Part shown: piece after piece, positions 37,065 through 37,811 of the stretch
Position numbering within the stretch: position 1 is the stretch's first letter
Layout of the letters: every line of letters starts with the position of its first letter
Source: an uncultured Acidobacteriota bacterium
Lineage (GTDB): Bacteria; Acidobacteriota; CAIWXX01
DNA length: 64,000 nucleotides
NCBI GenBank assembly: GCA_903916735.1
Contig: CAIWXX010000010.1
Location: forward strand, 1 to 64,000
Direction of reading: 5' to 3'
Made by a program: the position numbers and the translations under genes
The notes under the pieces: model-generated
Databases searched by the model: none
What the model saw: only the letters and a program-made list of their open reading frames with translations
What the model was told of the DNA's origin: nothing

Positions 37065-37240
37065 TGTAAGATATCACATGCGGGGCCGGTTTGATCCAGC
37101 TGCGTCCCTGGAATTCATTGGATTTCACCGATATGATCGCTTTTCTTCTGCAATTCGATTGCCCCGGGACAAGGAATTTACCTGGTCTCTTTACTGCCCA
37201 TAGCTGAAGCTGTAGAATTTCCATTCAAGGAGTGCATATC

Positions 37241-37456
37241 ATGTCTGATGACATTCTCATTTTCGGGAAGGATACCTGACCCTATACATCGAAGGCCCGT
37301 GAGGACTTCGCCAAGACTGATACTGTTCGCTACATCAATGTGCAAGCGGAACCTGGGGGTCTTGATCAGATGCTGAAATTCAGCAAGGGTGCTCGAACGG
37401 TGCCCGTGATCGTCAAAGGCGGCAAAGTGACGATCGGTTGGGATGGAGGCACCTGA
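37241..37456 (+). CDS. Glutaredoxin-like selenoprotein (UXX-star type), Sec at codon 13
   Basis: 71 residues if the TGA at 37277-37279 is read as selenocysteine. The frame then runs MSDDILIFGKDT-U-PYTSKA, with no other stop until the TGA at 37454. It has the thioredoxin order beta-alpha-beta-alpha-beta-beta. In place of the CxxC active site it has U-P-Y-T, and the cis-Pro strand TVPVIVKGGKVTIG is intact. This matches the glutaredoxin-like UXX-star selenoprotein family. No Cys occurs, so Sec13 would be the only redox residue. AAGGAG lies 9 bp before the ATG, and a SECIS-like hairpin follows the TGA. The exact substrate is unknown. A conventional reading would give a 12-residue peptide. Confidence 0.85.
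37290..37310 (+). promoter_or_regulatory. Bacterial SECIS-like hairpin
   Basis: Starting 10 nt after the TGA, CGAAG pairs with CTTCG (5 bp). Inside it CC pairs with GG around the apical loop GTGA, with a small internal bulge (GC/A). The loop's first G is 20 nt from the UGA, within the range known for SelB-bound bacterial SECIS elements, which need a G/GU in the apical loop. The hairpin lies inside the coding sequence, as expected in bacteria. Confidence 0.7.
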
Positions 37457-37811
37457 GGGGTCTAGCTGAGTGCGGCAGTTCGCCGCATGCACTGACGTGC
37501 CATCATTTTTCTACAGTTGTAGAATCAAAAAACGATCCAACTGCAGAGGAGAATCCGTTATCAAAAATCGTGGTGGAAACGGAGATTGCTGGAGTGCATC
37601 CTGCTGTAGATAGGGATGAGTCGATTATCCGAGGACCCCTGTTGAATTTTGTTGATAGGAGCGGATTTCATCGGGGACGGAATTCGTCTGCGTTGACGTC
37701 CCTGTTTGCAGAGGGAGATGTACAGAGTTGGACAACGGGAACCCCTAACGCGGCAACACGAGAAAATGGCGTGGACTGTTTTCAGGGAAATGACCCCCAA
37801 GACATCCCACA
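37457..37811. other. Intergenic between selenoprotein and glycosyltransferase genes
   Basis: A short hairpin (TGCGGC-AGTTC-GCCGCA) near 37471 may end the selenoprotein transcript. A frame is open through 37510-37800 but has no good start codon and no motif that I recognise, so I call no gene. A 16-bp palindrome is listed separately. Confidence 0.45.
37509..37524. promoter_or_regulatory. 16-bp perfect palindrome, possible operator
   Basis: TTCTACAGTTGTAGAA is perfectly symmetric apart from its 2-bp centre and contains TACA-n2-TGTA, the core bound by BlaI/MecI/CopY-type repressors. No such repressor gene is in the window and no clear promoter can be assigned, so this is only a candidate. Confidence 0.35.

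Follow-up and report, generated by a model that had tools for sequence, protein, structure and literature searches.

A short selenoprotein gene with two in-frame UGA codons

The 64,000-nucleotide stretch of DNA analysed here (the window) carries a short gene on its forward strand that, judging from its translation and its homologues, very probably encodes a UXX-star family 1 selenoprotein of 74 residues, two of which are selenocysteines (Sec-13 and Sec-72; Table 1). The predicted protein, MSDDILIFGKDTUPYTSKAREDFAKTDTVRYINVQAEPGGLDQMLKFSKGARTVPVIVKGGKVTIGWDGGTUGV, lacks Cys, shows UxxT at the glutaredoxin active site (U13-P-Y-T16), and contains a TVPVIV cis-Pro block. A preliminary description of this DNA had already recognised the UPYT motif and the cis-Pro block, as well as a good ribosome site ahead of the ATG, and all three are indeed present. 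It had also reported a frame from 37241 to 37456 interrupted by a TGA at codon 13. The in-frame TGA stands, but the end of the frame does not, because the last codon is a second predicted Sec UGA and the stop follows further on: positions 37454-37465 read TGA-GGG-GTC-TAG, which gives a C-terminal U-X-X-stop. Promoter-like matches near the gene constitute a weak signal, with two found in the region versus 0.4 expected.

Table 1. Coordinates of the gene and of its associated features in the window
Feature	Position	Strand	Description	Basis
UXX-star family 1 selenoprotein gene (predicted)	37241..37465	+	74 aa, stop TAG	translation and profile match
UGA, putative Sec-13	37277..37279	+	U-P-Y-T; takes the place of the first Cys in the glutaredoxin CxxC
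UGA, putative Sec-72	37454..37456	+	G-G-T-U-G-V-stop; stop codon of the preliminary description	TGA in 64/66 homologues
True stop codon TAG	37463..37465	+		homologues have TGA, TAG, or TAA there
Ribosome-binding site AAGGAG	37227..37232	+	8 nt before ATG	sequence
Candidate sigma-70-type promoter	37190..37218	+	TTTACT-17-TAGAAT	consensus match only
SECIS-like hairpin 1	37290..37310	+	CGAAGGCC-CGTGA-GGACTTCG, one mismatch; within coding region
SECIS-like hairpin 2	37467..37491	+	core GTGCGGC-AGTTC-GCCGCAT (37470-37488); 3' untranslated region

Family assignment and predicted fold

The family name UXX-star, proposed in the preliminary description together with a search against the family models, turned out to be the correct one. 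With U written as C, the 72-codon frame scores 102.7 bits against NF041114 (UXX-star selenoprotein family 1, equivalog; cut-off 72) and 78.7 bits against the parent model NF041212 (cut-off 66). The 74-residue form reaches 106.8 bits against NF041114, covering positions 1-70 of 70; NF041211 and NF047338, the models of UXX-star families 2 and 3, give 53-55 bits, well under their cut-offs of 100 and 97. A profile search of the genome with the same model returns a match at 37253-37462 that contains two TGA. Since residue 72, encoded by the second TGA, aligns with profile position 68 of 70, the family extends two residues past that codon. The name UXX-star evidently refers to a C-terminal Sec separated from the stop by two residues, which fits both the profile and the homologues. 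The architecture proposed earlier was thus right in predicting a selenoprotein with a glutaredoxin fold and a SECIS element, but the signature of the family, the C-terminal U-X-X-stop, had been mistaken for the end of the gene.

The gene had been presented as hidden, but its family is already catalogued. A 2026 review lists NF041114 as "distant Grx-like protein 1", UxxT, with 2 Sec (PMC13188914, Table 1), so the two-Sec state is already published as well. The gene is a genuine member of this double-selenoprotein family and is ordinary for it; what is new here is another member. We found no biochemical function assigned to UXX-star family 1.

A thioredoxin-like pattern had been noticed in the translation, and structure prediction bears this out. 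The AlphaFold2 model (18 sequences) is a confident glutaredoxin fold, with a mean pLDDT of 88.6 and a pTM of 0.76, in which secondary structure elements are ordered beta-alpha-beta-alpha-beta-beta and the chain ends past the fourth strand in the GGTUGV tail. Among solved structures, the best Foldseek match is an Archaeoglobus glutaredoxin (3ic4, E 7e-5), followed by cGrx1 and other glutaredoxins. A Pfam search with the frame likewise returned Glutaredoxin. With 30.0 bits against the Grx3 model TIGR02181 (cut-off 90) and the motif UPYT, the protein nevertheless falls outside classical glutaredoxins. Within its own genome, the UXX-star gene is the sole PF00462 glutaredoxin match that we found.

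Codons 13 and 72 in homologues

Matches over the family cut-off occur in 43 of 396 genomes of the phylum, nearly all with one or two in-frame TGA and mostly with exactly two. Our phylum set consists of 39 homologues extracted with both positions and selected by a TGA lying in the range expected for codon 72; another locus, L066, was left out because its contig ends before that codon. Codon 13 is TGA in 35 of these homologues and Cys in 4, and codon 72 is TGA in 39/39, as the selection dictates. All 39 have two residues (GV in 33/39) between codon 72 and a stop, which is TGA in 33, TAG in 5, and TAA in 1. A scan of GTDB genomes added 27 family members, including Acidobacteria, Deltaproteobacteria, Planctomycetes, Pelotomaculum, and Anaeromyxobacter; all are Cys-13 forms because the scan used a Cys-13 pattern, a sampling bias that says nothing of how frequent Sec-13 is. 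Their codon 72 is TGA in 25, TGC in one, and TCA in one; Anaeromyxobacter oryzae (L082), a cultured relative, is a C13/U72 form. The second Sec has therefore been lost in two relatives, being replaced by Ser in L078, one base away from TGA, and by Cys in L086. A search of a plasmid collection for the gene gave no match.

Pooling both sets yields 66 homologues, 35 with UGA-13 and 31 with Cys-13, which answers the suggestion in the preliminary description that relatives with Cys at codon 13 be sought. U72 is found in 64/66, a stop exactly two residues beyond codon 72 in 66/66, and Thr-16 is invariant (66/66). U/C exchange is seen at both UGA positions, with 31 Cys at codon 13 and one at codon 72 (L086). 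In this comparison, the predicted Sec-72 is more constant than the predicted Sec-13, which is swapped for Cys in many relatives. The absence of Cys, correctly noted at the outset, had been regarded as odd, but 33 of the 35 Sec-13 homologues have no Cys either, and the oddity vanishes when the second UGA, too, is taken to encode Sec. The view that all redox chemistry would rest on one Sec with a Thr partner gives way to two predicted Sec residues and two SECIS-like hairpins.

SECIS-like hairpins after the two UGA codons

Each Sec UGA is followed, with appropriate spacing, by a candidate SECIS hairpin, on comparative evidence that is strong for hairpin 2 and comes from codon choice for hairpin 1. 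Hairpin 1 begins 10 nt after UGA-13, as had been described, and its loop, CGTGA, lies 18 nt after that codon. Folding the stretch behind the first TGA, a check put forward earlier, does produce the hairpin, but its free energy is no lower than that of shuffles in the window to any significant extent (z = -0.18), and an unconstrained search for hairpins behind codon 13 in the homologues gives a score close to that of shuffles (11.1 versus 9.0). The comparison of codon choice is what proved decisive for this hairpin. Codon 19 is GCC in 35/35 U13 forms versus 20/31 C13 forms, and codon 20 is CGT in 30/35 versus 2/31. Restricting the comparison to Arg-20 encoded by CGN, CGT is used in 30/33 Sec-13 forms versus 2/21 Cys-13 forms (Fisher p = 1.5e-9, a value inflated by kinship since the Fisher tests count related genomes as independent). 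The GCC-CGT codons are thus kept with Sec-13 and mostly lost with Cys-13, which is the direction predicted for loss of a SECIS element.

Hairpin 2, whose loop lies 20 nt after UGA-72, is supported by its conservation. A stem with 5 or more pairs is present in 38/39 phylum homologues, and a G is found within the first two loop bases in 39/39. Since there are 36 different 5' arms among these 39 homologues, pairing is conserved while the sequence varies. The mean hairpin score is 19.3 versus 11.6 (sd 4.6) in shuffles, and the same scan at eight other offsets gives mean scores of 10.2-13.1; a score of at least 15 is reached by 36/39 homologues at the true place versus 4-16 of 39 at the other offsets. 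The putative hairpin after UGA-72 is thus position-specific in nearly all of the 39 homologues. At gathering thresholds, the only Rfam match in the window is a tRNA; no SECIS family was matched.

In 33/39 homologues, UGA is also used as the terminator three codons past the Sec-72 UGA, which places a Sec-UGA and a stop-UGA nine bases apart. In the homologues with such paired UGAs, the hairpin loop lies 14-24 nt from the Sec-72 UGA and nine less from the stop-UGA.

Selenocysteine machinery in the source genome

The preliminary description had proposed looking for selA, selB, selC, and selD in the rest of the genome (5.37 Mb, 98.7% complete). All four are present, each over its cut-off: selA with 404.6 bits, selB with 328 bits (cut-off 242), selC (tRNA-Sec) with 76.2 bits (cut-off 47), and selD with 317.6 bits (cut-off 125). 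The Sec machinery is therefore complete. We dismissed an alternative genetic code for UGA because of this complete machinery and the U/C exchange observed. The SelD of this genome (L018, G000:C55:140576-141499) has an in-frame TGA itself (SDCAGUASKLGPEDL) and is a predicted selenoprotein.

Proposed mechanism and alternative readings

We propose that SelB and tRNA-Sec would decode each UGA with the help of its own SECIS-like hairpin, the loop of which lies 18-20 nt downstream. UGA-13 would be served by the hairpin inside the coding region and UGA-72 by the one in the 3' untranslated region. The protein would most likely be a small cytosolic selenol reagent. Sec-13 would attack the substrate, since it is placed where glutaredoxins have their nucleophilic Cys, while Sec-72 might take over the resolving role of the missing second Cys of CxxC, which Thr-16 cannot perform, with a diselenide or mixed intermediate as the outcome. 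A redox role is moderately favoured over metal binding, and is much less certain than the two-Sec gene itself.

Both seleniums might instead jointly hold a soft metal or metalloid, in which case the protein would mainly be a binder of mercury, arsenic, or copper rather than a redox enzyme. Metal binding has been suggested for the Sec residues of UXX-star proteins (PMC13188914), the fold bears a weak, Foldseek-level similarity to the ArsD metallochaperone, and position 16 provides no second catalytic Cys in any of the 66 homologues. Since glutaredoxins are the best matches in both fold and sequence, the cis-Pro block is retained, and no metal-resistance genes were recognised alongside the gene in the window, we consider metal binding a credible but less probable function. 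Upstream of the gene lies a Der GTPase-like gene in the opposite orientation, and downstream of it one for a membrane protein. Neighbourhood clustering of some 65 loci, in which the clusters contain spurious reverse-frame ORFs, revealed local synteny among near relatives only and no functional partner; neighbours are not conserved in distant homologues, so the surroundings point to no substrate.

A 71-residue protein with a single Sec, ending at the second TGA and relying on monoselenol chemistry by Sec-13 with a Thr partner, would agree with TGA being a normal stop codon, and the frame to 37456 is already over the NF041114 cut-off. We consider this very improbable, because two residues and a stop lie past the second TGA in every one of the pooled homologues, the NF041114 profile includes residues beyond that codon, one homologue has a Cys codon at position 72, and a position-specific hairpin follows. 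A pseudogene or a sequencing error, with TGA codons marking a decayed ordinary glutaredoxin, would also show in-frame TGA, but it is refuted for practical purposes by the same two TGA at the same codons in tens of genomes, and sits badly with complete Sec machinery, which leaves it a negligible probability.

The two-Sec gene is a clean example of how the last Sec UGA of a short gene can be mistaken for a stop, even after a first Sec UGA had been spotted. The preliminary description had made a correct and difficult selenoprotein call from raw sequence, but cut the gene short. The 35 UGA-13 and 31 Cys-13 homologues with the same short tail make it directly testable 1) how the two hairpins act on their respective UGAs, and 2) what keeps a Sec-UGA distinct from a stop-UGA nine bases away. 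We tentatively suggest, as a possibility that we would not yet bet on, that this Cys-free glutaredoxin-fold protein places all of its chemistry on the Sec pair, as an intramolecular diselenide or a two-selenium metal site, and that in most relatives nothing but the place of the second hairpin might tell the Sec-UGA from the stop-UGA.

Comparison with known systems

The closest known system is the NF041114 family, whose model this gene matches at full length and above the equivalog cut-off; UxxT, two predicted Sec, and a C-terminal U-G-V-stop are common to both. Unlike most of its members, it has a one-residue insertion in the tail (GWDGGT versus GFGGT or GYGGT), which a few relatives share, and its final stop is TAG, where TGA is commoner. 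UXX-star families 2 and 3 (NF041211 and NF047338) have fold and tail region in common with it. Glutaredoxin 3 and other PF00462 proteins (E. coli Grx3; cGrx1, PDB 7c12) share the beta-alpha-beta-alpha-beta-beta order, the active-site position, and the cis-Pro, whereas the protein described here has no CxxC and passes from the fourth strand directly into a Sec tail, where they have a C-terminal helix. Finally, Sec-containing glutaredoxins of the UxxC type (PMC13188914, Table 1) have Sec at the first active-site position, as here, but this protein differs from them in displaying UxxT and a second, C-terminal Sec.
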